Shown here: positions 5,908 through 34,727 of the stretch, piece by piece
Numbering within the stretch: position 1 is the stretch's first letter
Layout of the letters: each line of letters opens with the position of its first letter
Source: Burkholderiales bacterium
GTDB taxonomy: Bacteria; Pseudomonadota; Gammaproteobacteria; Burkholderiales; Casimicrobiaceae
DNA: 45,342 nt
Direction: 5' to 3'
NCBI GenBank assembly: GCA_025352105.1
Contig: JANXUB010000031.1
Location: 1-45,342 of the forward strand
Made by a program: the position numbers and the translations under genes
The notes under the pieces: generated by a model
Seen by the model: only the letters and a program-made list of their open reading frames with translations
The model's database searches: none
Told to the model about the DNA's origin: nothing

Positions 5908-7272
5908 ATGTCTTGGACAGACAACATCGAAAACCAAAGTATTCCGGGTAGTGATCCGATATCGGTAACGGCCCTACTGCAACGCGCAAAATCGGCGTTG
6001 GAGCGGGCATTGCCGCTGTGTTGGGTGACCGGTGAAATTTCCGGTTTCAAGCGCGCCGCTTCGGGTCATTGCTATTTCGATTTGAAGGATGACGCGGCGC
6101 AGATTGCCTGCGTGCTGTATCGCAATCGGGCGGCGCTGGTCGGGTTCGAATTGAAGGACGGCGCGCAGGTCGAGCTACGAGTGCGCCCTGCCATTTATGA
6201 GCCGCGAGGTAGCTTGCAATTCGCGGTGGAGCAGGCACGGCTCGCGGGTGTCGGCCAGTTGTACGAAGCGTTTCTGCGACTAAAAGCGAAACTGTTTGCC
6301 GAGGGCTTGTTTGATGACGACAGGAAGCGCGCGCTGCCCGCTTTCCCACAACGCATCGGACTCATCACCTCAACCAAAGCTGCGGCGCTCGCCGATATGT
6401 TGCGCATCCTGCGTGATCGCTGGCCGCGCGCTGGCGTGATCGTGTACGCAGCAAGCGTTCAAGGCGTCAACGCGCCTCGCGAGCTGTTGGCTGCGCTGAC
6501 AGCGGCCAACCGGCGCAAGGAATGCGATGTCCTCGTCATCGGTCGCGGTGGCGGCAGCATTGAGGATTTGTGGGCCTTCAACGATGAAGCGCTGACGCGC
6601 GCCGTGGCTGCATCCACCATTCCCATCGTGAGCGCTGTCGGCCATGAAACCGATTTCTCATTGTGCGATTTTGCGGCCGATGCCCGTGCGCCAACGCCAA
6701 CGGCTGCGGCAGCACTGGTGACGCCTGAGCGCGAGGCGATCAGCGGGCTGGTGCATGATTTGGCTGAACGTGCAGCTGACGCCCTTCGCAGTCGGCTTGA
6801 TCGCCTTGGCGAGCGTCTGGATCGCGCGAGCGAGCGCCTGCGCAGCAGCAGTTCGGTGATTGCGCCATGGCGTGAGGCGCTATTGCGTCTGCAAGCCCGA
6901 CTACACCGAGCGGTCACGCTCTCCGCGCCAGCCCGCCGTGCGCGGCTGACACGGGCGCATCAGCGGCTGGCGCTCCAGATACAAAGGCCACCCGTAGCTT
7001 CAGTTCGCGTAGAAAGGGTCGCCACGCGCATGAACGCACTGGTGTCAAACGTGCTCACCGTCCAGTTGAGCCGGTTGGCTCAGGCCGCGCAGGCGCTTGA
7101 TTTGCTCAACCCGCAACGAGTGCTGGATCGCGGTTATGCCGTGGTGTTCGCGCCGGATGGAAGCACGGCGTCGGATGCAGCGAAACTGCCGATTAACTCG
7201 GCGATCAGGGTGAAGCTTCGGCGCGGCAAATTCGCGGCGCAAGTGACTGATATTTACGATGAACCGGCTTAA
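5908..7272 (+). CDS. xseA: exodeoxyribonuclease VII large subunit
   Basis: XseA is the catalytic large subunit of the single-strand exonuclease VII, acting with the small XseB (not in the window). With the ATG at 5908 the protein has 454 residues, the normal length. An N-terminal OB fold (VTGEISGFKRAASGHCYFDLKD) is followed by the catalytic core with RIGLITSTKAAALADML, RGGGSIEDLWAFNDE and IVSAVGHETDFSLCDF, then a long Arg/Leu-rich coiled coil and a short C-terminal barrel (DRGYAVVF). The open frame runs 44 codons further upstream but that part is unlike the family. The TAA stop merges with the first base of a dispersed palindromic element. Confidence 0.96.
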   Translation: MSWTDNIENQSIPGSDPISVTALLQRAKSALERALPLCWVTGEISGFKRAASGHCYFDLKDDAAQIACVLYRNRAALVGFELKDGAQVELRVRPAIYEPRGSLQFAVEQARLAGVGQLYEAFLRLKAKLFAEGLFDDDRKRALPAFPQRIGLITSTKAAALADMLRILRDRWPRAGVIVYAASVQGVNAPRELLAALTAANRRKECDVLVIGRGGGSIEDLWAFNDEALTRAVAASTIPIVSAVGHETDFSLCDFAADARAPTPTAAAALVTPEREAISGLVHDLAERAADALRSRLDRLGERLDRASERLRSSSSVIAPWREALLRLQARLHRAVTLSAPARRARLTRAHQRLALQIQRPPVASVRVERVATRMNALVSNVLTVQLSRLAQAAQALDLLNPQRVLDRGYAVVFAPDGSTASDAAKLPINSAIRVKLRRGKFAAQVTDIYDEPA

Positions 7273-7390
7273 CAGCTTTTTCTTGAAACTCCTTATTTTA
7301 AAGGGGCTAGTTGTACTTTTTCGCCATAATCGATAGATAGCGTTTATTGATTGAAGCCCCTTTTAAATAAGCCTTTCAGCAAAAAGCTGT
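7272..7390. repeat. dispersed palindromic element, copy A (119 bp)
   Basis: The ends are an exact 10-bp inverted repeat, ACAGCTTTTT (7272-7281) and AAAAAGCTGT (7381-7390). Inner arms TTATTTTAAAGGGGCT and AGCCCCTTTTAAATAA pair almost perfectly, so each arm is about 36-37 bp around a 46-base centre containing ATCGAT. Related copies lie at 16031, 28121 and 34609, with a single arm at 30715. The first base is the last base of the xseA stop. The right flank CTGATCCG recurs beside copy C. It may also fold as a terminator for xseA. Confidence 0.85.
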
Positions 7391-7469
7391 AAGCTGATCC
7401 GGTCGCCAGTCGTGCGTTTCCTGACGATGCGGAAACATCCGGCGAGTCTCGAAACGTTGGCTTATGCTA

Positions 7470-7498
7470 TTGGCAAAATAATGACAATGCCATAGACT
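7470..7498 (+). promoter_or_regulatory. candidate sigma-70 promoter for the DUF1800 gene
   Basis: TTGGCA (7470-7475) and TAGACT (7493-7498) are spaced 17 bases, five and four matches to the consensus hexamers. The -35 TTGGCA and the TGCCA before the -10 form a small dyad. The coding start is about 40 bases downstream. Confidence 0.35.
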
Positions 7499-7536
7499 AC
7501 GAACTAAGTTTTTATTAGAAACAACGGGATATGCCA

Positions 7537-9903
7537 ATGAAGTTTTTGCCACTGTTTTCTGCGGCATGCGCCCTCCTGACACTGACTTCTGCGCACGCCG
7601 CATGCCCCTTCAACGTTGCGGGAAATGCAACGGCAGACTCTTTGCGCGATGGCGTGCTGCTGGTGCGCTACGCCAAAGGCATTCGCGGTGCGGCGCTGGT
7701 GGCTGGTACGACGGCCAACTCAACCACCGTCGAGACCAACATCAGCAGCAACATCGACAAGCTCGATATCAACGGCAACGGCGTATTTGACGCTGACGAT
7801 GCGGCAATCATTGCGCGGAGCGTGTTTGGCTTTACCAGCGCCAACTGGTTGCCCGATGGCAAGGCGGGTGCTTACGGCACGAGAAACACGCTGCCCTTGC
7901 TCAAATCATTTGTTGACGCCGGTTGCACGCCATTGGTTGTGAGCCCGCCGACTGCGGCCCAGTTCGAAGCTTCGCGCTTTCTCATTCAATCGACCTTTGG
8001 CCCAAGTCGTGCCGACGTAGCAGCGTTTCTGGCGCTGCCGGGAGCGGATCAAGCCGCGCGCGCCGGGCAGTGGTTTAGCGCGCAGGCAGCGTTGGCGCGG
8101 CCACAAACTCACACCCAGTATGTCACCGCGCGGAAGACTGAATATGATGCCGTAGGCACTTCATTTTACGACGAAATGAGCCGTGAATCGTTCTGGGCAC
8201 AGGCCATCGCGGGTCCGGATCAACTGCGTCAGCGCATGGCGTTTGCGCTGTCGGAATTGCTGGTGGTTTCATCAAATGGCGACTCTGATAATCCGTTCGA
8301 ACTGGCCGGATATCTTGACTTGCTCGCAGACAATGGTTTCGGCAACTATCGCGATATTCTCTACAAAGTGGCGTTGTCTCCCGCCATGGGACGCTACCTG
8401 AGTCACCTGAGAAATGACGGCGGAAATTCCAACCCGAACGAAAACTTCGCTCGCGAGGTGCTGCAACTATTCGGCGTCGGCCTCTTTATGCTGGGGCCGG
8501 ATGGCGAAAAACTGCTTGTCAGCGGGCAGCCCGTTCCGACGTACGATGAAAACACGGTGAAGGGTTTCGCGAAAGTGTTTACCGGCTTCTCCTATGACGA
8601 TCCGTATTGCAAAACGGGCGATCCGGGCTATGGCATCAGCCGAGTGAACTGCGCCGACGGATACGGTGCCACCCACCCGGACTGGAATTGGTCGCCAGAT
8701 CGTTCCGACCTTCCTGCGAATGCTCAGGGAGAGCTTTTTCCGCCAGTGATCGCGGGATGGAAGCGACCGATGATTCCGTATCCCGGTCGCCACAGCGCAT
8801 TGTCCAAACAGTTGTTGATCTACTCCGATGCCAGCCCGCTTAGCGCCTGTACGAGCGCCGCTGCGCTGGCCTCGCCAGCAAGCGCAACACCAGGGTTGCT
8901 GCCAGCGATCAACACGGTTGGCTCCGGCGTGACGACCCGCACCAAAGTGAATGCGACGCAAGCCAACGACGTCATCAACAAGGCGATTGACAATATTTTT
9001 TGTCACCCTAGCGTCGGCCCGTTCATCAGCAAGCGGCTCATTCGTTCATTCGTGACCTCCACACCGAGCCCTGCCTACGTAGGCCGCGTTGCTGCCGTGT
9101 TCAACAACAATGGCTCGGGCGTTCGCGGCGACATGCAGGCGGTGTTGCGGGCCATTTTGCTTGACAGCGAGGCGACGCAAGCGAGCGCTACTGCGCCCAT
9201 GAATTTTGGCAAACTCAAGGAACCGATTCTGCGCCTGTCTGCCATCTTCCGGGCGTTCGGCGCAAAATCGGCGTCCGGGCGCTATCAGTTGCAATATGGT
9301 CTGGACGACGTCGACTCCGGTATCAGCCAGGGTCCGCTGCAATCGCCAACGGTGTTCAATTATTTTCATCCGGACTTTGCACCGCCCGGACCGGTCTCTG
9401 CTGGCGGCGCTGTCGGCCCGGAGTTTGAAATCACCACCACCACAGCAATTGCGTCGACGCAAAATTATCTCGGCAACATCGTCGCGTTCAGTGACAGCAG
9501 CAACAGCAACGCGTTCAACACCAATCTCATCGGTCGCTACGGCTGCAACACGAGCGTCGTCAGCAGCACCAATCCGACGACCGCGTCGCGCGAACACTGT
9601 TTGTTCGGAGACCTCTCCGAGCTCTACAGTCTCTCGGCTGACGGCAATGCAATCTTCGATTACCTCAATCTGTTGTTGTTCGGCGGCTCCCTGAATGCCG
9701 CGAACAAGGCCACGCTGGTTGTTGCGCTAAACACCGCGTTTCCTGTTACCGCCGCTCCCGTGCTGCTCGGCAGCCCGCCGTCTGCCGCCCAAATCAGCAC
9801 TTACAACAGCGCCGTTACGACATGGCAAGGTGTGAAGCGCGACCGCATCAAAGGTGCGCTCTGGCTCGCCGTCCACACCCCTGAATTTCAGATTCAACGA
9901 TAA
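7537..9903 (+). CDS. secreted DUF1800 protein with N-terminal dockerin-like module
   Basis: The protein is 788 residues from the ATG at 7537, which has GGGA at a suitable distance; an ATG two codons upstream is possible. A Sec signal peptide (MKFLPLFSAACALLTLTSAHA) precedes a module of about 85 residues with LRDGVLLVRYAKGIRGAAL and the calcium-loop-like LDINGNGVFDADDA. The rest is a DUF1800 domain (FLIQSTFGPSRADVAAFL, ENFAREVLQLFGVGL, SKRLIRSFVTS, QSPTVFNYFHPDF). DUF1800 genes are usually paired with DUF1501 genes, as here, 11 bases apart; the biochemical role is unknown. The N-terminal module matches the C-terminus of the sugar dehydrogenase at 13403-15961. Confidence 0.92.
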   Translation: MKFLPLFSAACALLTLTSAHAACPFNVAGNATADSLRDGVLLVRYAKGIRGAALVAGTTANSTTVETNISSNIDKLDINGNGVFDADDAAIIARSVFGFTSANWLPDGKAGAYGTRNTLPLLKSFVDAGCTPLVVSPPTAAQFEASRFLIQSTFGPSRADVAAFLALPGADQAARAGQWFSAQAALARPQTHTQYVTARKTEYDAVGTSFYDEMSRESFWAQAIAGPDQLRQRMAFALSELLVVSSNGDSDNPFELAGYLDLLADNGFGNYRDILYKVALSPAMGRYLSHLRNDGGNSNPNENFAREVLQLFGVGLFMLGPDGEKLLVSGQPVPTYDENTVKGFAKVFTGFSYDDPYCKTGDPGYGISRVNCADGYGATHPDWNWSPDRSDLPANAQGELFPPVIAGWKRPMIPYPGRHSALSKQLLIYSDASPLSACTSAAALASPASATPGLLPAINTVGSGVTTRTKVNATQANDVINKAIDNIFCHPSVGPFISKRLIRSFVTSTPSPAYVGRVAAVFNNNGSGVRGDMQAVLRAILLDSEATQASATAPMNFGKLKEPILRLSAIFRAFGAKSASGRYQLQYGLDDVDSGISQGPLQSPTVFNYFHPDFAPPGPVSAGGAVGPEFEITTTTAIASTQNYLGNIVAFSDSSNSNAFNTNLIGRYGCNTSVVSSTNPTTASREHCLFGDLSELYSLSADGNAIFDYLNLLLFGGSLNAANKATLVVALNTAFPVTAAPVLLGSPPSAAQISTYNSAVTTWQGVKRDRIKGALWLAVHTPEFQIQR

Positions 9904-9914
9904 GCGGCACGACC

Positions 9915-11795
9915 ATGAATTTCAAATCATTCAAACAACGCCGCGACTTTCTTAAAACCGTTGGCAGCGCCGCTGTTGCGGGCGGTTTGCCGACGCTGGA
10001 CGCGCTGAGCAATGTGGCGCTCGCTGCGGGTAGCACTGGCACGACGCAAGTCGGCAGCGACTACAAGGCCATCGTGTGCGTGTTTTTCTACGGCGGGCAA
10101 GACAACGCCAATGTGCTGATCCCGTATCAGGATGGTGACGCGACGGGCACAGCCACGGCGGCGACCACGACTGAATTTGATCGTTATGCCCATGACCGCT
10201 CAAACTTCAGCACCACTAATCCGGGCGGCGATCCATCGACGCAGGCCGCGGGTTCGGGCAATCTGGCGTTCACGCGCGCTCAACTCGCTGCAACGGCCTT
10301 GCCGGGAACGACGGTCAACAGCATTACCGGTGCCGCAAACGCGGCACCCGGCGGCTGGACAACCAACACCTATGGCCGTCAGTTTGCGTTGCATCCGAAC
10401 TACGCCGAGTTGAAATCGATCTACGACAGCGGCAAGCTGGCGGTAATCGCTAACGTCGGGCCGCTGATCGCCCCGATGACCCGTGCGCAATGGTATGGCC
10501 CGGCAGCTTCACGACCGGCGACGCCGCGGAATCTGTATTCGCACGATGACCAGCAAAAAAGCTGGATGAGCGGCACCGCGAACATCACTAACCCATCCTC
10601 GGGTAGTGGCGGCCGTATCGCAAATAATCCAGCCATCACCGCGCTCAACAGCGGCGCACAGGTCGCAACGCAGATATCGGTGGACGGCAGCAATACCTTC
10701 ATGTTGACGCCACTCAATCCGGATCCGACGGCGATTGCCTACCAAATCGGGACGGGCAGTATTGGCCGCTTGCAGACGGCAACAACCACGCCGATTTGGT
10801 CACCGGTTGGCACTGTTACGTGCAATACCGGCAGCAGCTTCATTACCGCCAATCCATCATCCCCGTACTGCGTCTCGGGTGGCCCCATCGCCGTAAACAA
10901 CGGCTACAGCTACAACGCGACGCTGAAGAACGCCTTCCTGTCGCGCGTGAACACGACCAGCGAAGCCAGTTCTGTGTACAGCGATCAGTGGCGTCAAACC
11001 ATGCGCCAGTCGATTGACACCCAGGCAGTGATTGCGCAGGCATTTCTGAACAGCCCGCCGACAGAGGAAATCGTTGCGCCATTTGCGCCCGTCATCGCTT
11101 CAAACTATCTCGCATCAGAACTGCGAATGGTGGCTGCGATGATTCGCGCCAGCAGCCAGCTCGGTGCCGGTGGCTCAGCGCTGAAGCGGCAGATTTTCTT
11201 TGTCAGCATCGGTGGTTTTGACACGCACGGCACAGAATTCTGGGTCAACAATCCGAGGAATAACGGGCAAATTAGCAAAGCGATCAACGCCTTCTGGACG
11301 GCGATGGGCAACGTCGCAGTCGTTGGCGGTGCAGCTGGCGAAACCGCGCGCGACCACGTCACGTTATTCACCATGTCCGAATTTGGTCGCACGCTGGACT
11401 CGAACGGCGCGGGTTGCGATCACGGGTGGGGCGCGCATCACTTCGTGGTGGGCGGCGCGGTCAAAGGCGGCAAGATTTACGGTCAGGACCACAACGTAGC
11501 CTCGGTTCCCGCAGGCACGCCAACCTACATGAGCCTGGACAGCACCGCTGGAGCGGTTCCGCGCATTGGCCTGCCCCCCTCGCCGTATTCCGGGACAGAT
11601 CGAATTGGGCCGAGCAAGCTCAACCATGCGTTGTCGCGCGGCGAATTGTTGCCGACAACATCGAGCGATGCAGTGGTCGCAACCGTTGCCAAATGGTTCG
11701 GTGTACCGGTGGCGGATCTGACGGGCCTGACAGGCGTATTCCCCACGCTTGCCACCGCGCATCCGGCTGGGTTTGATATAGGATTCATGAGTTAG
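9915..11795 (+). CDS. Tat-exported DUF1501 protein
   Basis: A 626-residue protein with a twin-arginine signal (QRRDFLKTVGSAAVAGG), indicating export in folded form, followed by a DUF1501 domain. Family landmarks are VCVFFYGGQDNANVLIPY, FALHPNYAELKSIYDSGKLA, FVSIGGFDTHGTE, FTMSEFGRTLDSNG, DHGWGAHHFVVGGAVKGG and the late KWFGV. The fold is thought to be related to the alkaline phosphatase/sulfatase superfamily, and the conserved Asp/His residues in FDTHG and DHGWG would be metal ligands; this is family knowledge, not seen directly. It forms a two-gene unit with the DUF1800 gene just upstream. Confidence 0.93.
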   Translation: MNFKSFKQRRDFLKTVGSAAVAGGLPTLDALSNVALAAGSTGTTQVGSDYKAIVCVFFYGGQDNANVLIPYQDGDATGTATAATTTEFDRYAHDRSNFSTTNPGGDPSTQAAGSGNLAFTRAQLAATALPGTTVNSITGAANAAPGGWTTNTYGRQFALHPNYAELKSIYDSGKLAVIANVGPLIAPMTRAQWYGPAASRPATPRNLYSHDDQQKSWMSGTANITNPSSGSGGRIANNPAITALNSGAQVATQISVDGSNTFMLTPLNPDPTAIAYQIGTGSIGRLQTATTTPIWSPVGTVTCNTGSSFITANPSSPYCVSGGPIAVNNGYSYNATLKNAFLSRVNTTSEASSVYSDQWRQTMRQSIDTQAVIAQAFLNSPPTEEIVAPFAPVIASNYLASELRMVAAMIRASSQLGAGGSALKRQIFFVSIGGFDTHGTEFWVNNPRNNGQISKAINAFWTAMGNVAVVGGAAGETARDHVTLFTMSEFGRTLDSNGAGCDHGWGAHHFVVGGAVKGGKIYGQDHNVASVPAGTPTYMSLDSTAGAVPRIGLPPSPYSGTDRIGPSKLNHALSRGELLPTTSSDAVVATVAKWFGVPVADLTGLTGVFPTLATAHPAGFDIGFMS

Positions 11796-11899
11796 GGAAA
11801 CGCGGCAAACTGGCCGCCAGTCGGTTGAACTAAATGCAAACCATGGCGTTCACCCCACACTACCGTAAGCAATGAGATTTTTGAATAACGCGAGCGCCT

Positions 11900-13390
11900 T
11901 TGTACTTACGTAGCGTCACCGCTCTCGCGGTAGTTCTGTGCGCGAGCTTCAACCCCGCCAGGGTCACCGCACAAGACGCCGTCGCTGGCAAGATTGTTTA
12001 CACAACACCCGCCGTCGTCGGACAGAAGAGTTGCAGTGATGCCTCCTGCCACACGGTCAATCCTCTTAACAATCAGAACCGGATACTCAGAGGAGCCGAT
12101 GATCCCGGCGCGATTGGTTTTGCCATCAGCAGCGTCGCACAAATGGCCTTTTTGCGTAACCCGCTCAAGTTGACTTCAACACAAATTCAAAATCTCGCCG
12201 CGTACATTGGCAATCCGGCAGCGGCGACAGGCGCACCGGTTGCACAAGTCTCCCCGGCGTCGCTTACCTTCGCACCAACCGTCGTCGGCAACACCGCAGC
12301 GTCGCAATCATTCGCCATCAGCAACACCGGCACCGCCAATCTCGTTGTCGGCTCGGTCACTACGAGTAACTCTGAGTTCTCACTGGTAAGCAGTTGCGGC
12401 ACGATATCGGCAGGCGCAAGTTGCAACGTGTCGACAGGCTTCTCGCCCGCATCGACGGGCGCACGCAGCGGAACCATCACCGTGACGCACAACGCAGCCG
12501 GTACGACCAGCACCGTGGCGCTATCCGGCACCGGCGCGGCGGCAGCGGTGCCGGGGATTCAGGTGACGCCACTATCGCTTGACTTCGGCACCGTGGCCGC
12601 CGGTTCGTTTTCGGGCGGTTTGCCCGTCGCCGTCAGCAGCGTGGGTGGTGCGCCGCTCGTGATCACTGGGCTATCGGACACGGGCGCGGTGTTCCCCGTG
12701 ATTGGCGGCAGCTGCGTGGTGGGCACGCCCGTGGCTGCGGGCGGTAGCTGCACGATTCTTTTGCGATTCGCGCCCGCCGTCGCAGGCCCTCAAAGCAAGA
12801 TGCTCACGATCAGCCATAACGCGGGCACGGCTCCTCTGTCCATCAGCCTTACTGGCATCGGCTTAGCCAGCACTGGCACCATCAAAACGATGGTGGAGTA
12901 CCTCTACGCGCCGCTCAACTACTTTTTCATCACTTCCCGTGATGACGATAAAGTGGCGCTCGACAAGATCGCGGACTTTCGGCGCACTGGCCTGAGCTTT
13001 CCGGTGTACGCGACTCAGGTCGCAAACAGCAAGGCCATCTCGCGTTTTTACTTCGATCAGATCGCCGTTCACGCCTCGCGCGGCAGCCATTTCTACACGC
13101 TGCTAGACAACGACAAAAGCGCGCTCATTGCGCTCAACCCCAGCAACGTTGCCGCGCCGCGCTTGCCGGTCAACGAGGGCATCGATTCCTGGGCCTTTTT
13201 GCCGGTTGTGTCTGGGCCGGGCGGATCGTGCGCCAGCGGTCAAACGCCGGTGTACCGGCTGTTCCGTGGCGCCGCAAAGTTTCCTGACGATCCGAACCAT
13301 CGCTTCACGACGAGCTTGAGCGTTTACGACGCGTTTGTCGCGCTGGGCTGGGACGGCGAAGGCGTTAATTTTTGCGTGCCGCAACCTTAA
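11900..13390 (+). CDS. secreted cytochrome c-like / SPD-2-like repeat protein
   Basis: The protein has 496 residues if started at the TTG at 11900, the only usable start after an in-frame stop at 11882. That start gives a signal peptide (MYLRSVTALAVVLCASF...). Residues 26-105 resemble a small cytochrome c, but the heme site reads CSDASCH (C45-x4-C50-H51), longer than the usual CxxCH. Two SPD-2/Hydin-like beta domains follow (about 115-215 and 222-325). The C-terminal 165 residues look like DUF5648 (EYLYAPLNYFFITS, PVYRLF, RFTTSLSVYDAFVALGW). An ATG at 11872 opens a 13-codon peptide in another frame, so a frameshift at the true start is possible. It may be functionally linked to the DUF1800/DUF1501 pair upstream. 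Confidence 0.85.
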   Translation: MYLRSVTALAVVLCASFNPARVTAQDAVAGKIVYTTPAVVGQKSCSDASCHTVNPLNNQNRILRGADDPGAIGFAISSVAQMAFLRNPLKLTSTQIQNLAAYIGNPAAATGAPVAQVSPASLTFAPTVVGNTAASQSFAISNTGTANLVVGSVTTSNSEFSLVSSCGTISAGASCNVSTGFSPASTGARSGTITVTHNAAGTTSTVALSGTGAAAAVPGIQVTPLSLDFGTVAAGSFSGGLPVAVSSVGGAPLVITGLSDTGAVFPVIGGSCVVGTPVAAGGSCTILLRFAPAVAGPQSKMLTISHNAGTAPLSISLTGIGLASTGTIKTMVEYLYAPLNYFFITSRDDDKVALDKIADFRRTGLSFPVYATQVANSKAISRFYFDQIAVHASRGSHFYTLLDNDKSALIALNPSNVAAPRLPVNEGIDSWAFLPVVSGPGGSCASGQTPVYRLFRGAAKFPDDPNHRFTTSLSVYDAFVALGWDGEGVNFCVPQP

Positions 13391-13402
13391 GCGCCCTTCG
13401 CT

Positions 13403-15961: not shown

Positions 15962-16030
15962 GGCATGACTTTATGCTGCTGGCATTAAAAGCGCAAGCAA
16001 AACTCATTTGAGTGAACCGATGAAAATCTA

Positions 16031-16158
16031 ACAGCTTTTCATACAAACGGCCTGCTATCCCAACGTTACAGGGGCATATTCACAAAAAAACGGCAAGTCG
16101 ATATTCACAAAAAATCCGCTTCACCCCCTATTCAATGGTCTTTTCAGCGAAAAGCTGC
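16031..16158. repeat. dispersed palindromic element, copy B (128 bp)
   Basis: The left end is ACAGCTTTTC (16031-16040) and the right end AGCGAAAAGCTGC (to 16158). Inner arms read ACAGGGG and CCCCTATT, and the centre has two A-runs around AAGTCGATATT. It lies between two divergent genes, so it is not simply a transcription terminator. Divergence from copies A and C is greatest in the left arm, which is several bases longer. Confidence 0.75.
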
Positions 16159-16208
16159 TGCTGCGCCTGTCGCGAAAACCCAACGAATTCTGGCGTCGGC
16201 ATCGCACT

Positions 16209-16229
16209 GTGACAAACCCGCGTTGTCAC
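16209..16229. promoter_or_regulatory. dyad-symmetric possible operator
   Basis: GTGACAA, seven bases (ACCCGCG), then TTGTCAC form an exact inverted repeat of 21 bases total, about 200 bases upstream of the PhoH-like start. The shape is that of a binding site for a dimeric regulator, but no regulator is suggested. Confidence 0.35.
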
Positions 16230-17873: not shown

Positions 17874-17913
17874 AGCGGCACATACACTCACTGCGCAACA
17901 AGGAGGATTTGTT

Positions 17914-23998: not shown

Positions 23999-24001
23999 GC
24001 G

Positions 24002-25123: not shown

Positions 25124-25126
25124 CCG

Positions 25127-26515: not shown

Positions 26516-26566
26516 GTTTCAGTTTCAGCTCAAGGCTGTTGATGAGTAAGTCAGAACCTAAGCCGC

Positions 26567-27271
26567 TTAGGCAATCTGCACGACCCCAGGCTGCACGGCG
26601 ACCTCCACCGGCGTTTCAGGAACCCCCAACTCACGCACACGGTTGAGCTGCCCCTTGATCCAGTCGACGAGCGGCACCCACGCTTCGATCTGCTGCTCGG
26701 TGCGCGATGCTGGCAGGTCATAGATCGACACGCCGTCTCGCGCGCATTGCGGGTACACCACGCTGTCAGGCACGAACATCACAACCGGCAAGCCGCTGCG
26801 CTTGAAAAAACTGTTCAATTCCTGTGCCATGCGAGTGCGGCTATCGGTGCGGCTGCCGACCAGGCCAATGGCTACTTTGCCGGACTGCAGGTTTGGATCA
26901 GCATGCAACTTGATCAAAAATTTGGCGGTCGCCTCGATATCAAACACTGACGGATTAACCGGCACCAGCACGCAATTTGCGCGCGATAACAGATAAGTCC
27001 GATCCGCGCGACGCAAGCGGGCGTGCGTGTCAATCACCATCCACTGCGGCGCAAAAGCACGCAGCTCCTCCATATCGGTTTCTTCGTTCCACGCCATGAT
27101 TTTTGGCAGCATCGTGGGACGCCGAGCGAGCCAGTTGGTAGAGGATTGCTGCTTGTCAAGATCCATGATCACGACACGCTGCTTGGTCGACGCGAGCATG
27201 CCAGCGATGTTGGTGCTCAGAGTGGATTTACCGGCTCCACCTTTAGGATTTGCAATGAGTATCGTGAACAT
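26567..27271 (-). CDS. ParA/MinD-like ATPase, second of a tandem pair
   Basis: A 234-residue deviant-Walker ATPase with KGGAGKST at residues 10-17, DLDKQQSS for the ADP-sensing loop and WMVIDTHA as Walker B. The overall shape is that of a ParA-type positioning or partitioning protein. No parB or centromere-like repeats are visible nearby. It is clearly a paralog of the gene just upstream: WLARRP, APQW.VID, the VLVPV segment and CARDGVSIYDLP recur. The ATG at 27271 follows the paralog's stop by 17 bases. The cargo is unknown. Confidence 0.9.
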   Translation of the reverse strand: MFTILIANPKGGAGKSTLSTNIAGMLASTKQRVVIMDLDKQQSSTNWLARRPTMLPKIMAWNEETDMEELRAFAPQWMVIDTHARLRRADRTYLLSRANCVLVPVNPSVFDIEATAKFLIKLHADPNLQSGKVAIGLVGSRTDSRTRMAQELNSFFKRSGLPVVMFVPDSVVYPQCARDGVSIYDLPASRTEQQIEAWVPLVDWIKGQLNRVRELGVPETPVEVAVQPGVVQIA

Positions 27272-27288
27272 GCGGGGAGTGTATCGTC

Positions 27289-27945: not shown

Positions 27946-28339
27946 GACGCCCAAGCCCCCACTGCCTCAACATGATGAGCGCAGTATAGGGCAGGAATCG
28001 GGCCCTATTCCGCGTCTCGGCGTTGCGATTGGGCTCGATGAAGCGACGGCAAATATTTCTCCCGCATCGCACCCAGACCGGAGTACCGATTTTTCGGCGA
28101 GCAAAACCGACGATAATCAAACAGCTTTTCCACCGAATCCCTATTTTATTGGGGCTACAACTTAAAAAAGTCTATAGTCGACTTTAGATAAAAACCTCGT
28201 TTACCCCCTACGAACAGGGGATTTCACGAAAAAGCTGTCAGTCTGATCCGTTCAACGTCTGCTGCCGCATCACGTTGGCCACATGGCATCACCTGCAAGA
28301 ATACGGCCAAAATCTCAGGCAATACGCTGGACAAAAAAC
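27946..28339. other. divergent intergenic region with element copy C
   Basis: The 394-base region contains dispersed element copy C (28121-28238). On each side there are about 100-175 bases without a recognisable gene. No convincing promoter was picked out. Confidence 0.5.
28121..28238. repeat. dispersed palindromic element, copy C (118 bp)
   Basis: Left end ACAGCTTTTCC, right end AAAAAGCTGT. The left arm continues ...CCCTATTTTATTGGGGCT and the right arm begins ACCCCCTACGAACAGGGG. The centre includes the palindromic stretch AGTCTATAGTCGACTTTAG. Together with copy A this is the best-preserved example. The right flank CAGTCTGATCCG matches AAGCTGATCCG next to copy A. Confidence 0.85.
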
Positions 28340-29404
28340 ATGACGCCTTTGCAAAGGATCCTCGGCATCGATTTGCCTGTCATTCAGGCCCCAATGGCAG
28401 GCATTCAAGCCTCCGCGATGGCGGTCGCCGTTTCCAATGCGGGTGGCCTCGGCTCGCTGCCGGGCGCGATGCTGACGCTTGACGCGCTGAAACGCGAGCT
28501 CGCCGCGATTCGGGCGCAAACCGACCAGCCGTACAACGTGAATTTTTTTTGTCACGTTCCGCCGACACCGAGCGAGGAACGTGAGGCGCGCTGGCGTGAT
28601 GCGTTGGCACCGTACTTTGCAGAATTCGGCATCGATCCCGCAACGATTCCGGCTGGTGCCGGACGCATGCCATTCACGGCTGAAGTCGCTGATGTCATCG
28701 CCGAATTCAAGCCGCCGATTGTCAGTTTTCATTTCGGATTACCCACGCCCGAATTGATGAGCCGCGTGCGCTCGTGGGGCGCAAAAATCCTGTCGTCCGC
28801 CACGACCGTCGACGAAGCGCGCTGGCTTGCAGCGCACGGTGTCGACGCCATCATCGCCCAGGGGCTTGAGGCCGGGGGCCATCGCGGCATCTTCCTGTCG
28901 AGCGACCTCACCACGCAGGTCGGCACGTTCGCCCTGTTGGCGCAGATTGTGCGCGCGGTGAACGTGCCGGTGATCGCAGCGGGCGGCATCGCGGATGCTG
29001 CGGGCATCAAAGCGGCGCTGTCACTCGGCGCAATCGCCGCACAAGTGGGCACGGTGTACATGTTGTGTCCCGAAGCATCGACCAGCGCGCCACATCGTGC
29101 AGCGCTCCAGAGCGAAGCAGCACGGCATACGGCGCTGACCAATCTTTTCACCGGACGTCCAGCGCGCGGCATCGTCAACCGCCTCATGCGCGAGTTGGGT
29201 TCGATCAGCGCAGCAGCGCCCGAATTTCCGCTCGCGACCGCAGCCATCGCGCCGCTACGTGCTGCCGCAGAAAAACTCGGAAGCGGTGATTTTTCACCGC
29301 TGTGGTCCGGTCAAAATGCGAGCGGATGCAAAGAGATTGGAGCCGCTGAGCTCACGCGGGAACTGGCCGACGACGCGGCGCAACAGATTCGCGAGTACAA
29401 ATAA
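28340..29404 (+). CDS. nitronate monooxygenase family protein
   Basis: A 354-residue FMN-dependent TIM-barrel enzyme of the 2-nitropropane dioxygenase family that oxidises alkyl nitronates. Landmarks: VIQAPMAGIQASAMAVAVSN, GGLGSLPG, FHFGLP, QGLEAGGHRG (with the catalytic His), PVIAAGGIAD, and AAQVGTVYMLCPEAS. I chose the ATG at 28340 (MTPLQRILGI). An ATG 19 codons upstream is in frame but its product is not family-like and lies nearer to element C. The true substrate is unknown; some relatives are enoyl reductases. The next gene, an HD protein, starts 18 bases after its stop. Confidence 0.93.
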   Translation: MTPLQRILGIDLPVIQAPMAGIQASAMAVAVSNAGGLGSLPGAMLTLDALKRELAAIRAQTDQPYNVNFFCHVPPTPSEEREARWRDALAPYFAEFGIDPATIPAGAGRMPFTAEVADVIAEFKPPIVSFHFGLPTPELMSRVRSWGAKILSSATTVDEARWLAAHGVDAIIAQGLEAGGHRGIFLSSDLTTQVGTFALLAQIVRAVNVPVIAAGGIADAAGIKAALSLGAIAAQVGTVYMLCPEASTSAPHRAALQSEAARHTALTNLFTGRPARGIVNRLMRELGSISAAAPEFPLATAAIAPLRAAAEKLGSGDFSPLWSGQNASGCKEIGAAELTRELADDAAQQIREYK

Positions 29405-29422
29405 TCAGTTGCGCTCGCCATC

Positions 29423-30055
29423 ATGACAAATCCGACAAGTCACCTTACTCGTTGGCAACTGATGTGGCAGCAACTGGGCGTACTCAGCCCCGGCGCAGAG
29501 CTTTTAGCTGACGTAATTCATCGCTACGCAGAGCCGCATCGCCACTATCACACGATGCAGCACCTCAACGAGTGTTTCGTCAATTTCGATCAGGTTCGCG
29601 TTGAAGCGACGCACCCCGCCGAGATCGAACTCGCGCTTTGGTTTCATGATGTGATTTACGACGTAACCAGTCACACCAATGAGCAACACAGCGCAGATTG
29701 GGCTCATTCAGTCGTGTTGAACGCTGGCGGTTCAGCAACGGTGGCCGACCGGGTGCACAAACTGGTGATGGTCACCGCTCACAACGCGCTGCCACGCTCG
29801 CTGGACGAACACATTTTGGTCGATGTAGACCTGTCCATTCTGGGCGCTGAATCCGCGCGCTTTGCCGAATACGAAACACAAGTTCGCGCTGAATATTCGT
29901 GGGTTCCCGAAGCAACGTATCGCAGCAAACGCGCAGAGATTCTGCAAACGTTTCTGGATCGAAAAACCATCTACAACACGGCGCATTTCAAGGCGAGCAA
30001 TGAAGCCAAAGCGCGCCGCAATTTGGCCGCCTCGATTGCAAATCTGATCGGCTAG
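29423..30055 (+). CDS. HD-domain metal-dependent phosphohydrolase-like protein
   Basis: A 210-residue cytoplasmic protein. The metal-binding residues are in YAEPHRHYHTMQHL (with several His) and the HD pair in LWFHDVIYD, with a later VDVDLSILG. This conserved proteobacterial family (often annotated as predicted HD-superfamily hydrolase) has no known substrate. It follows the nitronate monooxygenase gene by 18 bases on the same strand, probably in one transcript. A REP-like inverted pair begins four bases after its stop. Confidence 0.9.
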   Translation: MTNPTSHLTRWQLMWQQLGVLSPGAELLADVIHRYAEPHRHYHTMQHLNECFVNFDQVRVEATHPAEIELALWFHDVIYDVTSHTNEQHSADWAHSVVLNAGGSATVADRVHKLVMVTAHNALPRSLDEHILVDVDLSILGAESARFAEYETQVRAEYSWVPEATYRSKRAEILQTFLDRKTIYNTAHFKASNEAKARRNLAASIANLIG

Positions 30056-30059
30056 CCCG

Positions 30060-30144
30060 CGTAGCCTCGATGCAGCTACAGCGGAATCGAGGATCGTCGC
30101 TCGGGGATGTACCTCGATTCCGCTGTAGCTGCATCGAGGCTACG
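30060..30144. repeat. REP-like perfect inverted pair (33-bp arms)
   Basis: Two exact 33-bp arms, CGTAGCCTCGATGCAGC... (30060-30092) and its complement (30112-30144), are separated by 19 bases. Each arm also has internal symmetry, CCTCGAT...ATCGAGG, and so resembles a single REP unit. The sequence is reminiscent of the GTAGCCCGGATG...AATCCGGG REP class mobilised by RAYT transposases in proteobacteria. That is a comparison from memory. It sits between the HD gene and the glcG-like gene and would form a very stable hairpin, acting as a bidirectional terminator or mRNA stabiliser. Confidence 0.88.
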
Positions 30145-30167
30145 AAACACTCAGTCGATATGCAACG

Positions 30168-30671
30168 CTAAAACTCAATCGCATCGGCAATCGCCTTGAT
30201 GCCCGCTTTCGCGCACACATCATCCGCTTCGCCGCCCGGTGCGCCCGAGACGCCAATGCCGCCTAGCGTGCTGCCGCCCGCTTCGATGACTTGCCCACCG
30301 CCCGCCGCGAATACCTTTGGGTGCGAACGAATCGCGCTCATGGGTTTACCTGCCTGCGTTTCGACGCCGAGCGCAGCGGTGGAAATGCGAAAGCTCACGG
30401 CCGTCCACGCCTTGTTCGGCGCGATATCGACCGTGTGTGCACCGGCGAAGCGATCACGCAAAAGCACCTGCACGAGACCCGCGCGATCAACCACGGCGAC
30501 GGTCACCTGATAGCCATCTTTGCGGCATTGTTCGAGCGCAGCTTTGGCGGCGGTCAATGCGGTTTCAGGCGTCAGGGATTTAGTTGAGAACGTGGCGTCC
30601 TGAGCGCTGACGGTCACGACCGCCGACGCGATCAACGCAGCCGCTGTCCGTAAAACAGTGCGAAAACTCAT
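30168..30671 (-). CDS. GlcG/HbpS-like heme-degrading-type exported protein
   Basis: The protein has 167 residues from the ATG at 30669-30671, preceded by GGAGGG five bases upstream; an ATG six codons earlier lacks such a site. A Sec signal (MSFRTVLRTAAALIASAVVTVSA) is followed by a GlcG domain (DUF336): LTPETALTAAKAALEQC, VTVAVVDRAG, RDRFAGAHTVDIAPNKAWTA, GGGQVIEAG, and GGIGVSGAPGGEADDVCAKA. Family members include GlcG and the heme-binding HbpS; function here is unassigned. The C-terminus is complete. Confidence 0.9.
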   Translation of the reverse strand: MSFRTVLRTAAALIASAVVTVSAQDATFSTKSLTPETALTAAKAALEQCRKDGYQVTVAVVDRAGLVQVLLRDRFAGAHTVDIAPNKAWTAVSFRISTAALGVETQAGKPMSAIRSHPKVFAAGGGQVIEAGGSTLGGIGVSGAPGGEADDVCAKAGIKAIADAIEF

Positions 30672-30714
30672 AAAAGCCCTCCAAATCAACCGACTTGCGC
30701 CATTATCAACCGTC

Positions 30715-30750
30715 AGCCCACGAGTAATAAGGCTTTAAGCCGAAAGCTGT
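30715..30750. repeat. dispersed palindromic element, single right arm (copy D)
   Basis: This 36-base sequence, starting AGCCC and ending CGAAAGCTGT, has the same length and spacing as the right arm of copy A; 26 of 36 bases match. The partner arm is not recognisable. The end falls on the first base of the sequence complementary to the Nudix gene stop, so that stop reads TAA-CAGCTTT on the minus strand. Confidence 0.6.
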
Positions 30751-31280
30751 TAGTCAATCTTTGCGTCTAAGAGCGTGAACTCGCCTTTGCGCCGACATTC
30801 GAAGTAGTGCTCAAGCGCTGTCTTCACAGTGCGAAACGCGAGTTCTTTCCACGGAATCTCGTCCTCGCGAAACAGGCGAATTTCAGTGCTCTCCGGGGTA
30901 GTCGCGTATTTCGCCTCGCTCATCGTGCCGAGATACATCATGTGAACCTGCGAGATGTAGGGCACCGAGAGCACGGTGAGCAGCGGCCCGAGCGTGACGG
31001 TGGCAACGGCCTCTTCAAACAGCTCGCGCTGCGCGCCCTCTTCGACGGTTTCGTTGTTCTCCATGAACCCAGCGGGAAGCGTCCATTTGCCGAGTCGTGG
31101 TTCGATGCCGCGAAGGCAGAGCATCACTTTGTCCTCAAACACCGGGACGACGCCGCAGACGATTTTCGGATTTGAATAGTGAACCGTGCCGCAAGCGGGG
31201 CAAACGTAGCGCGCGCGTTGATCGCCTTCCGGAATCGTCAGCGCAATGTCCGCGCTACCGCAGGTCGAGCAAAACTTCAA
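30750..31280 (-). CDS. Nudix hydrolase with zinc ribbon
   Basis: A 176-residue protein. An N-terminal CxxC...CPAC zinc ribbon ([26 protein letters not shown]) is followed by a Nudix domain with box [21 protein letters not shown], whose last Gly is Ala here. The arrangement resembles NudC-type NADH/mRNA-cap pyrophosphatases, although the protein is shorter than E. coli NudC. It shares four bases (ATGA) with the end of orn, so the two are coupled. The stop codon lies on the edge of a single-arm repeat. Substrate unknown. Confidence 0.92.
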
Positions 31281-31855
31281 GCCTTGGCCTCCACACGCTC
31301 CGCAACCGCAGGAAGTTTGATGAAGTGGTCGCGGTAATGCTTAAGCTCATCAATGCTTTCGTACACGTCGGCGAGCGCGGTGTGACGCGTCTTTTTCTGA
31401 AAGCTTTTTTTCACGTCGGGAGCCCAGCGCGACGCCAGCTCTTTGAGCGTGCTGACGTCCACGTTTCGGTAGTGAAAATAGGCTTCAAACGTTGGCATGT
31501 AGCGCACCATAAACCGTCGATCCTGATGCACGCTGTTACCACAGAGCGGGCTCACGCCTTTCGGCACGTAATTCGCGAGAAAGTCGATCATCTGCGTCGA
31601 TGCTTCGGCTTCAGTCATCGTCGAGGCTTTCACTTTTTCGATCAATCCGGATCGACCATGCGTGTTTTTGTTCCATTCGTCCATCGCATCGAGCACGCTG
31701 TCGGCCTGATGGATGACAAGCACCGGCCCTTCGGCGATGGTGTTTAGATCTTTGTCGGTGATCACAACCGCCACCTCCAGCACTCGGCAAACTTCCGGGT
31801 CGAGGCCGGACATTTCCATATCGAGCCAGACGAGATGATTTTGGTTTTGTGCCAT
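31277..31855 (-). CDS. orn: oligoribonuclease
   Basis: Orn degrades short RNA oligomers, the last step of RNA turnover, and cleaves pGpG. It has 192 residues from the ATG at 31853-31855, with the DEDDh exonuclease motifs [23 protein letters not shown] and a final [21 protein letters not shown]. The open frame extends 111 codons upstream but opposite the M48 peptidase gene and without homology. The start lies just 118 bases from that divergent gene. orn divergent from M48-phhB-rsgA is a familiar betaproteobacterial layout. Confidence 0.95.
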
Positions 31856-31972
31856 AGGATGCCGGTAACGATGAGACAAGAAAGCGGAAAAGCGCGAAAA
31901 AAGGGCCGTTGCGGCCCAGCGTCGCGACCCAATATAGTCAACAATCAGGTCAATACAATTTTCCCACAGCGC

Positions 31973-33301
31973 ATGCCGTCCGACACCCTCACCGCCGTTT
32001 CTGCCGTTTCTGCCGTTTCTGCCCTCCCCGCTGTTTCCGCCACGTCGTTTGCTTCGGTGATGATGGTGGCGCTGCTCGCGAACTATTTCATCGAGCGATG
32101 GTTGCTCAATCGCCAGTTGCGACATGTCGCGTCTTGGCGCGATGAAGTACCGGAGCCGTTCGCCGAACGCATCACGCTCACCGAGCATCAGCGCGCCGCT
32201 GACTACACGCTCGCCAAAGGCACGTTCACCAAGGTCGAGTCAGCCATTGGGCTGACTGTTTCTGCGCTCATTCTGTTTGGCGGATTGAGTCGGTTATGGG
32301 GGTTCACGTTGCCACTCGCGGACACGCCGATCCTGCGTGAGGTTGCGCTGGTGGCGCTTTTGTCGCTGGTGACGGGCGTTGTCTCGGTACCGCTGTCGTA
32401 CTACAGCACGTTCAATATCGAAGAAAAATTTGGCTTCAACAAGACGACGAAGACGACGTTTTGGGTGGATCTGGTGAAGGGCAGCCTTTTATCTGCTGCG
32501 CTGGTGTTGCCGCTGGCGGCACTGGTGTTCTGGTTGATGCGCTCGGCGGGGCCGCTGTGGTGGCTTTATGCGTGGTTGGTGTTTATTGGCTTTCAGTTGC
32601 TGATGCTGGCGCTTTATCCAACTTTTATCGCGCCGCTGTTCAACAAATTTTCTGCGCTCGATTCCGGCGAAACAAAAACTGCGATTGAGGGCCTCCTAAA
32701 ACGCACGGAGTTCGAAAGTAAGGGCCTCTTCGTGATGGACGGCTCAAAGCGTTCGGCGCATGGCAACGCGTATTTCACAGGCTTCGGCAAGGGCAAGCGC
32801 ATTGTGTTTTTTGACACGCTGCTTGAGCGCCTGAGCAACAACGAAATCGTTGCCGTGCTCGCTCATGAGCTCGGCCATTTCAAGCGCAAACACATCGTGA
32901 AACGCATCGTGTTCATGGCGCTGGCGAGCCTTGCTTTTTTGGCCGCCGTCGCATGGGTGTTGCCGCAGCCGTGGCTCTACACCGCATTCGGTTTCGCCAC
33001 GGACACGGGCACGACGTCACCGGGCGTGGCGCTCATTTTGTTTTCGCTGGTGTTACCGCCGCTGTTGTTTTGGATGGCACCCATCGCGTCGGCGTATTCG
33101 CGAAAACATGAGTTCGAAGCGGATGCCTATGCGGCCCAAGTGTCGAGCAGCGATGATCTGATTGCCGCGCTAACGAAGCTCTACAAAGACAATGCGAACA
33201 CATTAACGCCCGATCCGATTTATTCCGCGTATCACCACTCGCATCCGCCGGCAATGATTCGCATCGCGCACTTGCGGGCGCAACCGGGGGTTTCGGCATG
33301 A
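31973..33301 (+). CDS. M48 family membrane metallopeptidase (Ste24-like)
   Basis: An integral-membrane zinc protease of 442 residues from the ATG at 31973; 46 upstream codons are open but not family-like and would overlap the orn promoter. Zinc ligands are in AHELGHF (His298, Glu299, His302), with the third in [10 protein letters not shown]. Several membrane segments surround them. Ste24/CAAX-type proteases cleave membrane proteins; the bacterial substrate is unknown. The N-terminus contains [10 protein letters not shown] from a 9-bp tandem repeat. Its stop overlaps the phhB start by four bases. Confidence 0.93.
31992..32027 (+). repeat. 9-bp tandem repeat inside the M48 peptidase gene
   Basis: GCCGTTTCT repeats at least three times exactly, then in degenerate form, giving [15 protein letters not shown] at residues 8-22. 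Since the period is 9, length change by slippage keeps the frame and alters only a low-complexity N-terminal tail. Confidence 0.75.
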
Positions 33302-33669
33302 GCAGTCCCGCTGCGATCGCGGTCGCGCTGGCCGATCTAGCGGCGCTCAACGCAGCGCCGCAACATGACCAGCCTGCGTTCAGCGCGGCACACATTGAAG
33401 CGCAATTGAGCGTGCTCCCCGACTGGGCTTTTCAGGGCGGAAAGATCGTCAAATCGTTTCGTTTTGCCAACTATTACGAAACGATGGTCTTCGTCAACGT
33501 CGTCGCCGCTATCGCACACAAAACCGACCACCACCCTGATCTTTCCGTGCATTACAACCGCTGCGAAGTCGCGTTTAATACGCATGACGTCGATCACGGC
33601 AAAGGCGGAATTTCCGTGAACGACTTTATCTGTGCTGCGCGGATCGAAACCGCTCGCCAACTTACCTAA
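33298..33669 (+). CDS. phhB: pterin-4a-carbinolamine dehydratase
   Basis: A 123-residue protein whose core (LPDWAFQGGKIVKSFRFANYYETM, AHKTDHHPDLSVHYNRCEVAFNTHD) is the DCoH/PhhB signature, including the three active-site His. PhhB regenerates tetrahydrobiopterin after aromatic-amino-acid hydroxylation and can have other roles when no hydroxylase is present. An N-terminal Ala-rich extension of about 30 residues is unusual. It shares ATGA with the M48 gene end and precedes rsgA by 17 bases, so the three genes form one likely operon. Confidence 0.93.
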   Translation: MSSPAAIAVALADLAALNAAPQHDQPAFSAAHIEAQLSVLPDWAFQGGKIVKSFRFANYYETMVFVNVVAAIAHKTDHHPDLSVHYNRCEVAFNTHDVDHGKGGISVNDFICAARIETARQLT

Positions 33670-33686
33670 AAACACAAAGAAATCGA

Positions 33687-34574
33687 ATGCTGCAAGGTCT
33701 GGTCATCGAGACACAACGCCGACATAACGTCGTGCAAATGCCGGACGGCACGCGCATCAAGTGCATCAGCAAGGGGCGGCTGTTGCAGATGGCGTGCGGC
33801 GATCTTGTCAATATCACGATGACTAACGAGCGCGAAGGTGTCGTCGAGTCCGTGCTGGAGCGGCGGTCGCTGTTCTACCGCGCCGATGCGTACAAAGAGA
33901 AACTGGTGGCCGCCAACGTGACGCAGGTCGCCTGCATCATCGCGCCGCTGCCCGCGTATTCCGACGAGCTTTTGAACCGCTGGCTGGTGTGCGCTGAGGC
34001 GAGCAACGTGAAGGCCGTGATTGGGCTCAACAAGATCGATCTGGTTGAGGCGGCCGCGGCGGCGAATGCGTTGGCGCGCTATCGTGATCTGGGGTACGAC
34101 GTGGTTCTCTTCTCGGCGAAATTCAACGATGCGCCGATGCGTGAAAAACTCATGGGCGAGCGCTCGGTGTTGATCGGTCAGTCCGGAATGGGCAAGAGCA
34201 AATTGCTCAATGCGCTGGTCGGTGAGGAGGCGCAAAAGACCCGTGAAATTTCAGTCGCGCTCGACTCTGGCAAACACACAACCACGTTCACTCGGCTCTT
34301 CACGCTCGGTCGTGACGACACCTGGGTGATCGACTCGCCGGGCATGCAGGTGTTCGGACTCAATCATTTTTCGCGGCTCGAAATCGAGCGCGCATTTCCT
34401 GAATTTCGAGCGTCCCTGGGGCAATGTCGTTTTCGTGACTGCAAACATTCGCACGAGCCGGATTGCGCGCTGCGTAAGCTGGTTGCCGATGGCAAAGCTT
34501 CGCAAGAGCGCCTGTCGATCTTGCGAAAATTTTGCTCCGAAGGGGAAGCGGTGCCGCATTACGAGCGGCACTAG
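33687..34574 (+). CDS. rsgA: ribosome biogenesis GTPase RsgA
   Basis: RsgA (YjeQ) is a circularly permuted GTPase that helps mature the 30S subunit. The G4 motif NKID (115-118) precedes G1 GQSGMGKS (164-171) and G3 DSPG (216), the permuted order that defines the family. A N-terminal OB fold binds rRNA, and a C-terminal zinc site reads CRFRDCKHSHEPDC. The length (295) is normal. A palindromic element of the dispersed family starts 34 bases after the stop and includes a hairpin AGCCCT/AGGGCT (34625-34644). Confidence 0.96.
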   Translation: MLQGLVIETQRRHNVVQMPDGTRIKCISKGRLLQMACGDLVNITMTNEREGVVESVLERRSLFYRADAYKEKLVAANVTQVACIIAPLPAYSDELLNRWLVCAEASNVKAVIGLNKIDLVEAAAAANALARYRDLGYDVVLFSAKFNDAPMREKLMGERSVLIGQSGMGKSKLLNALVGEEAQKTREISVALDSGKHTTTFTRLFTLGRDDTWVIDSPGMQVFGLNHFSRLEIERAFPEFRASLGQCRFRDCKHSHEPDCALRKLVADGKASQERLSILRKFCSEGEAVPHYERH

Positions 34575-34608
34575 TCTGCACCTAGCTGCACCTGTCCGAA
34601 AAAACAAT

Positions 34609-34727
34609 ACAGCTTTATTCTGAAAGCCCTATTTAAAAAGGGCTGAAGCCAGCTTTTTGATAAAGTTGACTTTTGCCAAAAGTAGGCTCCAGCCCCTGTG
34701 TAGCGGTCTTTCTATGAATAAATCTGC
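34609..34727. repeat. dispersed palindromic element, copy E (119 bp)
   Basis: Left end ACAGCTTTATTC (34609-34620) and right end GAATAAATCTGC (34716-34727) pair imperfectly. Inner sequences AAGGGCT and AGCCCC are at the same spacing as in the other copies, and the centre includes AAAGTTGACTTTT. It is between convergent genes (rsgA and the FabH-like gene). The left arm alone forms a small hairpin AGCCCT/AGGGCT. Confidence 0.72.

Follow-up and report, generated by a model that had tools for sequence, protein, structure and literature searches.

The stretch of DNA analysed here (the window; positions 1 to 45,342 of contig JANXUB010000031.1, 45,342 nucleotides) comes from a Burkholderiales bacterium of the family Casimicrobiaceae (assembly GCA_025352105.1, which spans 4.50 Mb on 231 contigs with a completeness of 92.6%). 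Its intergenic gaps hold four full copies, one half and one degraded copy of a palindromic site of about 118 bp (Table 1). Site 1 overlaps the final base of the xseA stop codon, and site 4 lies in a convergent gap with an rsgA-like gene on one side and a fabH-like gene on the other. A preliminary description of the window had reported the four full copies, a single arm at 30715–30750, shared ends, inner GGGCT/AGCCC arms and a TCGA-like centre, and in these points it was correct. Both nhmmer and a model built from a gap-free alignment, on both strands, of 14 copies that are each 118 bp long (R1) recovered all four full copies where they had been placed, with best-strand E-values of 1.1e-12 or better, and the single arm was recovered as half of a site. 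The left arm of site 2 is about 10 bp longer, and its R1 match ends at 16157; site 4 has a diverged right end, with the R1 match ending at 34717/34718. In the sixth site, one half is good and the other is decayed and stretched.

The description had also placed the copies in tandem, divergent and convergent contexts, and all gap orientations were indeed seen; since every gene orientation occurs, its view that termination alone does not explain the sites is supported. Its further statement that they form a dispersed, unrecognised intergenic family agrees with the hundreds of copies found per genome and with the lack of a named match. The whole window gave no Rfam match at the gathering score; site 1 alone, searched at a lax threshold, gave one match with an E-value of 3.3, far below its gathering score. 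No described element matching the 118-bp sites was found in the literature searched, as far as its available text goes.

Layout of the site

The site consists of twofold-symmetric positions at fixed distances, with AAAGTCGACTTT at the dyad, GCCC at ±26–29 and AAAAGCTG at ±52–59. Between these boxes lie A/T-only positions, and the total length is 118–120 bp. Base frequencies were counted in 123 copies from the complete relative G004 (246 halves, columns numbered outward from the dyad). Next to the dyad, G1 (0.97), A2 (0.98) and C3 (0.80) were followed by W (A or T) at columns 4–5. Columns 12–15 were also W, and columns 13–14 were A/T in 97–99% of halves, with either base accepted, which may resemble indirect readout. 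The inner box, G26 C27 C28 C29 (0.80–0.98), was followed by A/T at 30–32, then by A36 A37, G39, G41 and T44 T45; the outer box comprised A51–A55 and G56 C57 T58 G59, and background was reached from about column 62. Columns 1, 2, 27, 28 and 54 carried 1.49–1.87 bits of information. The outer box began at offset 50 or 51 in 216 of the 218 halves in which it was clear.

The same boxes recurred in the copies of the source genome, where the outer ends were set by the search pattern; profile matches selected without exact ends largely retained the outer boxes too. In a third species (G006), a profile trained on that genome's own hits showed this arrangement of boxes unchanged in the strongest 25 of its 40 sites, with the pattern GCCC-AATT-AAT-GG(G/C) at ±26–42 and different base preferences around the dyad. 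The GC profile of the site had its main peak at a period of 9.4–9.5 bp in both the source genome and G004, and a fraction of 0.004 of 1000 column permutations, run on a coarser period grid, was as strongly phased. As a separate observation on the window, a gene for a ParA-family partition ATPase (26567–27271, minus strand; NCBIfam E 1.2e-35, under the family cut-off) lies about 850 bp from site 3, with no link to the sites shown.

Table 1. Palindromic sites in the window, with R1 E-values.
Feature	Position	Strand	Dyad	R1 E-value	Remarks
Full site 1	7272–7390	.	TCGA 7330–7333	4.5e-17	119 bp
Full site 2	16031–16158	.	TCGA 16098–16101	4.2e-13	128 bp
Full site 3	28121–28238	.	TCGA 28178–28181	3.8e-20	118 bp; near consensus
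Full site 4	34609–34726	.	TTGA 34666–34669	1.1e-12	
Half site	30687–30750	.		3.3e-5	one half recognisable, other not
Sixth, degraded site	40884–41012	.		1.1e-7	nhmmer E 3.3e-9

Copies, genomes and orthologous places

The end pattern ACAGCTTTT N85-112 AAAAGCTGT occurred at 19 places in the source genome, while the reversed control pattern had none. R1 gave at least 150 rows there (E 1.8e-19 to 1.3e-12), corresponding to about 75 places among the matches listed. A profile scan of 417 kb (seven contigs) of the source genome found 39 places at E ≤ 1e-3, and the same profile found none at E ≤ 1 in a copy of the sequence redrawn from the same dinucleotide chain. Chance is excluded, since both the reversed pattern and the redrawn copy gave zero. 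For G004, an iterated profile, refined on the very 1.6 Mb that was then counted, found 123 places at E ≤ 0.01, and 121 of these reached E ≤ 1e-8; redrawn G004 sequence again gave no place at E ≤ 1. Extrapolation yields about 420 copies in the source genome and about 340 in G004.

Within the sample, the sites were restricted to one uncultured betaproteobacterial genus. R1 matched 16 of its 17 genomes at E ≤ 1e-3, the source genome included, versus none of 43 genomes outside it. A second model, R2, built from sites of the source genome and G004, matched 6 of 349 genomes across the order at 1e-4, all belonging to the same genus (1 of 147 genera); no site was found in the other 146 genera sampled, with search filters that lose weak matches. 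The nearest named genome, Betaproteobacteria bacterium labscale reactor_MAG30, carries sites at the same places as G011. When R1 was applied to the surroundings of xseA at 80 named loci, only the window matched, and site 1 was not seen even in the nearest named relative. In the 3' flank of rsgA of another genome, G001, GCCC and GGC boxes occur in an AT-rich stretch that was missed by the profiles and by eye resembles a strongly diverged site; this genome may have its own form of the motif.

Numbers varied inside the genus. Most of the matching genomes had at least about 61 R1 rows among the matches listed, G008 had 16 and G009 only 9. No site was found in G016, one of whose searches scored 150 of 167 candidates. 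G008 and G016, both with genomes reduced to about 2.5 Mb, form one clade on a GyrA tree, the base of which did not resolve. Of the 13 places in G008, two are weak and three match along only part of the site. The flanks of the G008 sites were compared with the searched parts of G004 and the source genome, counting orthologs of at least 45% identity. Eight of the 13 sites could be judged in this way (five could not), and seven of these eight had an ortholog within 3–273 bp of a site in G004 or the source genome; for one of the seven, the nearby site was in the source genome, not in G004. The comparison suggests that the sites are older than the split of G008 and G016 and were mostly lost in that clade.

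Sites were also partly retained at orthologous places in the source genome and G004, which were compared through 98 reciprocal best hits. A G004 site was present at 9 of the 22 orthologous gene ends where the source genome has a site, versus 4 of the 172 where it has none. The nine shared gene ends represent seven sites, one of them weak and partial in the source genome (C156 114072). When aligned, the seven orthologous pairs had 60–72 matches, compared to 65.3 ± 5.2 for random pairs. Orthologous pairs are no more alike than random ones; the motif has thus been retained for a long time while its free positions became saturated.

Base pairing and mobility of the copies

Two interpretations in the preliminary description did not hold. 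It had stated that pairing inside each copy is kept, suggesting selection for structure, and had proposed a miniature inverted-repeat transposable element (MITE), a repetitive extragenic palindromic (REP)-like unit or a structured RNA. Pairing was examined by comparing each left arm with its own right arm and with the right arms of other copies. In the source genome, own arms gave 371 matches versus 370.6 ± 9.8 when the halves were re-dealt (12 of 15 copies, those of exactly 118 bp), and 37 of 39 copies (two dropped because of dyad score or edge) gave a z of 1.21, or 0.51 with G-U pairs allowed. The 123 G004 copies gave a z of 1.16 (0.87 with G-U pairs), G006 had 638 matches versus 629 ± 15 after re-dealing, and mirror column pairs had a mean z of 0.17 over 56 pairs. 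The arms of all three genomes were thus without the covariation expected of selected base pairing. When all columns were scanned in G004, 16 out of 5939 column pairs exceeded a z of 4, and 23 pairs lay beyond +3.5 and 23 beyond −3.5. The ten best pairs and the six best stems all fell within one half, and we tentatively read them as 1-bp register shifts and not as pairing.

A structured RNA, a bidirectional terminator or a cruciform maintained for base pairing is therefore very improbable, the least credible of the alternatives considered. Single copies do fold well (z of −6.45 and −7.19 for site 1, and between −3.9 and −5.6 for sites 3 and 4), but the fold of site 2 was unremarkable, with 18 and 19 of 200 shuffles folding equally well or better. 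Single copies fold and seem paired because both halves share one motif. The small palindrome inside each half gave a weak and uneven signal, the best z being 2.73 in the source genome and 2.83 in G006 but only 1.48 in G004, the largest set; the occurrence of every gene orientation also speaks against such an RNA. The family is a clean case of a well-folding 'palindrome' that is not kept as a hairpin, as was revealed by re-dealing the arms.

An old and diverged miniature mobile element with target immunity (a MITE, a REPIN or a TIME-like element) would account for hundreds of copies with shared ends, for local mutual exclusion of the kind seen in transposition immunity and for the turnover of sites between species. 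Incomplete copies occur as well, namely the lone half in the window and the part-site matches at three of the 13 places in G008. Target site duplications of k 2–9 were, however, no more frequent in G004 than at shuffled partners, and a half-site profile, which gave 188 hits at E < 1e-3 on the 246 halves of the called sites, detected no half elsewhere in the 1.6 Mb of G004. Near-identical copies were absent. All 7503 G004 pairs, taken in the best orientation, had a mean of 68.7 matches out of about 120 and a maximum of 87, with none at 90 or more; in the source genome, 400 random pairs gave 65.8 ± 4.9 matches over about 118 positions. The likeness between copies does not exceed what the motif requires. 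At orthologous places, motif columns were retained while the others were saturated, and transposition does not require a fixed spacing around the dyad. Lacking target duplications and near-identical copies, a MITE was rejected.

A REPIN was considered because of the distribution of Y1 transposase genes: 15 of the genus's 17 genomes have them, and none was found in G008, which has 13 sites, or in G016, which has no site. Of the 44 matches listed, five Y1 genes, from G000, G004 and G006, had their surroundings examined. These genes, which we would call RAYT-like (REP-associated tyrosine transposases) on our own reading, were bordered by hairpins of four kinds starting with GTAG, on both sides in four genes and on one side in the fifth, which lies near a contig end. 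No site was found near any of the five (best match E 0.74), and the GTAG tag is not present in the end consensus of the 118-bp site. REP-type systems thus seem to exist in the genus as something distinct from these sites, and, on the five genes examined, the REPIN was rejected, as was the REP-like unit of the preliminary description. G009 has Y1 genes yet only 9 site rows, and the transposase may have been lost in the reduced genomes regardless of the sites. Taken with the points above, an origin as a mobile element is improbable.

Known repeats differ accordingly. Enterobacterial repetitive intergenic consensus (ERIC), NEMIS/Correia and MITE-like repeats are likewise palindromes of about 120 bp, intergenic and present in high copy, and their copies are alike over the whole length; here only spaced boxes are retained, without target duplication. 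BIME-2 (bacterial interspersed mosaic elements), REP and REPIN with their RAYT also form hundreds of intergenic inverted-repeat units, and BIME-2 bind gyrase, according to the available text of the reports (PMC2817692, PMC3116915, PMC6379681). In contrast to these, the ends of the present sites have no GTAG tag, arm pairing is not kept, and the RAYT-like genes examined in the genus carry other repeats. In sum, the sites behave like neither a jumping element nor an RNA.

Spacing and the putative reader

Spacing was analysed for 121 spacings in G004, excluding a single one of 105 kb. The mean was 12.3 kb with a coefficient of variation (CV) of 0.52; random choice of intergenic gaps, with the longest spacing dropped, gave a CV of 0.92, and the lowest of 2000 draws was 0.73. 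Only 4 of the 121 spacings were shorter than 4 kb, versus 30 expected on average (lowest random value 17). Counted as pairs, there were 2 at 0–3 kb versus 23.4 expected and 14 at 3–6 kb versus 29.6; beyond this, the ratio scattered around 1:1. In the source genome (37 sites, two partial ones excluded), 1 pair was closer than 3 kb versus 9.0 expected (none of 3000 draws as low) and 6 pairs were closer than 6 kb versus 17.4 expected (0.03% of 3000 draws as low). Sites thus exclude each other within about 3–6 kb in two of three species.

When genes were called crudely, 35 of the 123 sites in G004 lay in convergent gaps, 60 in tandem and 28 in divergent ones; the 439 background gaps of at least 120 bp, site-bearing ones included, comprised 88, 231 and 120, respectively. 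Overlap with a called open reading frame by more than 20 bp was seen for 30 of the 123 sites in G004 and 7 of 39 in the source genome and may reflect the crude gene calling. Successive 200-kb bins of G004 held 10, 16, 14, 16, 20, 12, 19 and 16 sites. The origin is probably near the start of the record, since gyrB lies at 2.9 kb. The low first bin contains most of a 105-kb stretch without any site (110–215 kb, 97 called genes). We take this stretch for an integrated element because seven of eight large proteins tested had Pfam matches, a Tn3 transposase, TraC, TraG/D, HerA and a topoisomerase among them; a methylase and an SNF2 helicase are also part of its gene content.

A stretch with mobile-element genes but no sites would fit a self mark (like Chi or a DNA uptake sequence, DUS) that is confined to host DNA and serves uptake, repair or defence. 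So would the viral contigs, in which the core pattern occurred in 67 stretches, none of them with a recognisable site (best nhmmer E 1.9). The young age of the island explains the absence of sites equally well, and 118 bp of symmetric information is unnecessary for a mark. Known self marks (Chi, DUS) are 8–12 bp long and far denser, which also counts against this explanation, and we regard it as improbable.

At slightly better than even odds (a rough probability of 0.53), we interpret the family as double-stranded recognition sites for a twofold-symmetric complex that bends or wraps DNA and has an architectural role. Bent or wrapped DNA on such a complex is suggested by the sharp boxes, the A/T-only positions and the GC period of 9.4–9.5 bp. 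An architectural role is suggested because the 340–420 stations keep a minimum spacing of about 3–6 kb in two species, are intergenic and are indifferent to gene direction. A dimeric protein complex would touch the dyad (AAAG TCGA CTTT), the two inner boxes (GCCC...GG, ±26–41) and the two outer boxes (AAAAGCTG, ±52–59), and would bend or wrap the DNA between the boxes at the A/T-only positions. Selection would keep the sites as intergenic stations, on average 10–13 kb apart, which would most likely anchor or bound chromosomal (topological) domains. The protein reader, the wrapping and the architectural role are what we infer from this pattern. The matS, parS and Noc sites are also conserved double-stranded DNA sites dispersed on the chromosome; they measure 13–16 bp, whereas the sites described here are 118-bp composites.

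The main specific rival is that the reader is DNA gyrase. The sites would then be putative strong gyrase sites, at which gyrase is loaded or held at intervals of about 10 kb; the 4-bp TCGA dyad would form the overhang left by cleavage, and the arms would wrap around the C-terminal domains of GyrA. In the available text of the literature, gyrase prefers about 120 nt, palindromic about the cut, with a GC period of 10–11 bp (PMC12324340, PMC6379681, PMC12393610), and length and dyad symmetry of the sites, and in part their phasing, resemble these preferences (PMC12324340, PMC6379681). The palindromic preference of about 120 bp around a 4-bp centre is shared with the gyrase motif (PMC12324340); the strong gyrase site (SGS) of Mu also measures, with that motif, about 120–130 bp, and has periodic GC arms and a proposed role in topological domains in the text available (PMC6379681, PMC12324340). 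The −2A/+6T preference fits the source genome and G004. Gyrase was seemingly the sole type II topoisomerase in the family genomes tested: one GyrA and one GyrB frame were found in all eight (G000, G004, G006, G008, G016, G017, G019 and G021) and ParC/ParE in none, with one further weak ParE match (20.6 bits) in G004. Furthermore, GyrA of G016 and G008, with no or few sites, is somewhat more diverged (82–88% identity to the source genome, G004 and G006).

On the other hand, the GyrA proteins of the source genome, G004 and G006 are 90–92% identical over 625 columns despite differing forms of the motif, and no insertion or loss was seen to distinguish that of G016 (82–85% identity to these three; sister genera, 68–73%). 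Of the cleavage-core preferences, −4G/+8C and +1G/+4C were not matched, nor was −2A/+6T in G006, where +6T is missing. The main GC period is 9.4–9.5 bp, not 10–11 bp, where the signal was weaker. Compared to the strong gyrase sites, those described here have sharp boxes at ±26–29 and ±52–59 and were seen in one genus only; at up to 1.87 bits, their columns far exceed in sharpness the weak biases described for the arms in the available text of PMC12324340. A dedicated reader is favoured over gyrase because the motif form differs at 90–92% GyrA identity, the boxes are sharper and the core preferences are only partly matched. Gyrase as the reader is therefore rather unlikely, with a better standing than a mobile element, a self mark or an RNA.

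Several observations weigh against recognition sites of the putative architectural complex. The sites are dispensable or unrecognised in G016 and G009 of the same genus, since the former has none and the latter only its 9 rows. Exclusion in G006 was weak, with 5 spacings shorter than 3 kb versus 10.2 under uniform placement (2.2% of draws); at 6 kb it was absent and the CV was about 1, in a set found with a profile trained on itself. No spacing order was seen beyond about 6 kb, so that the pattern is one of exclusion and not a true period. A site follows rsgA in 4 of the 14 genomes with a readable 3' flank (the source genome, G015, G010 and G006, the last searched with a profile trained on this site among others; the flank in G007 ran into a contig end, and rsgA was not matched in two genomes). 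Individual sites are gained and lost, and turnover is common. Finally, the phasing is not purely helical, since a second GC peak near 7.5–8 bp had about 60–70% of the strength of the main peak.

In E. coli, the barriers between supercoil domains are generally regarded as mostly mobile, with positions that sequence does not dictate. The number of supercoiled domains given for E. coli in the available text of PMC3820752 is 400–500, and the genus described here has about as many sites, which are long, symmetric and under selection and keep a minimum spacing in two species. We tentatively suggest genus-specific, nucleosome-like stations, in which a twofold-symmetric complex might wrap about 118 bp at about 400 intergenic places that exclude each other within about 5 kb, so that supercoil domains would be set by sequence. 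If a protein reads the sites, domain boundaries would be readable from the sequence, which is directly testable.

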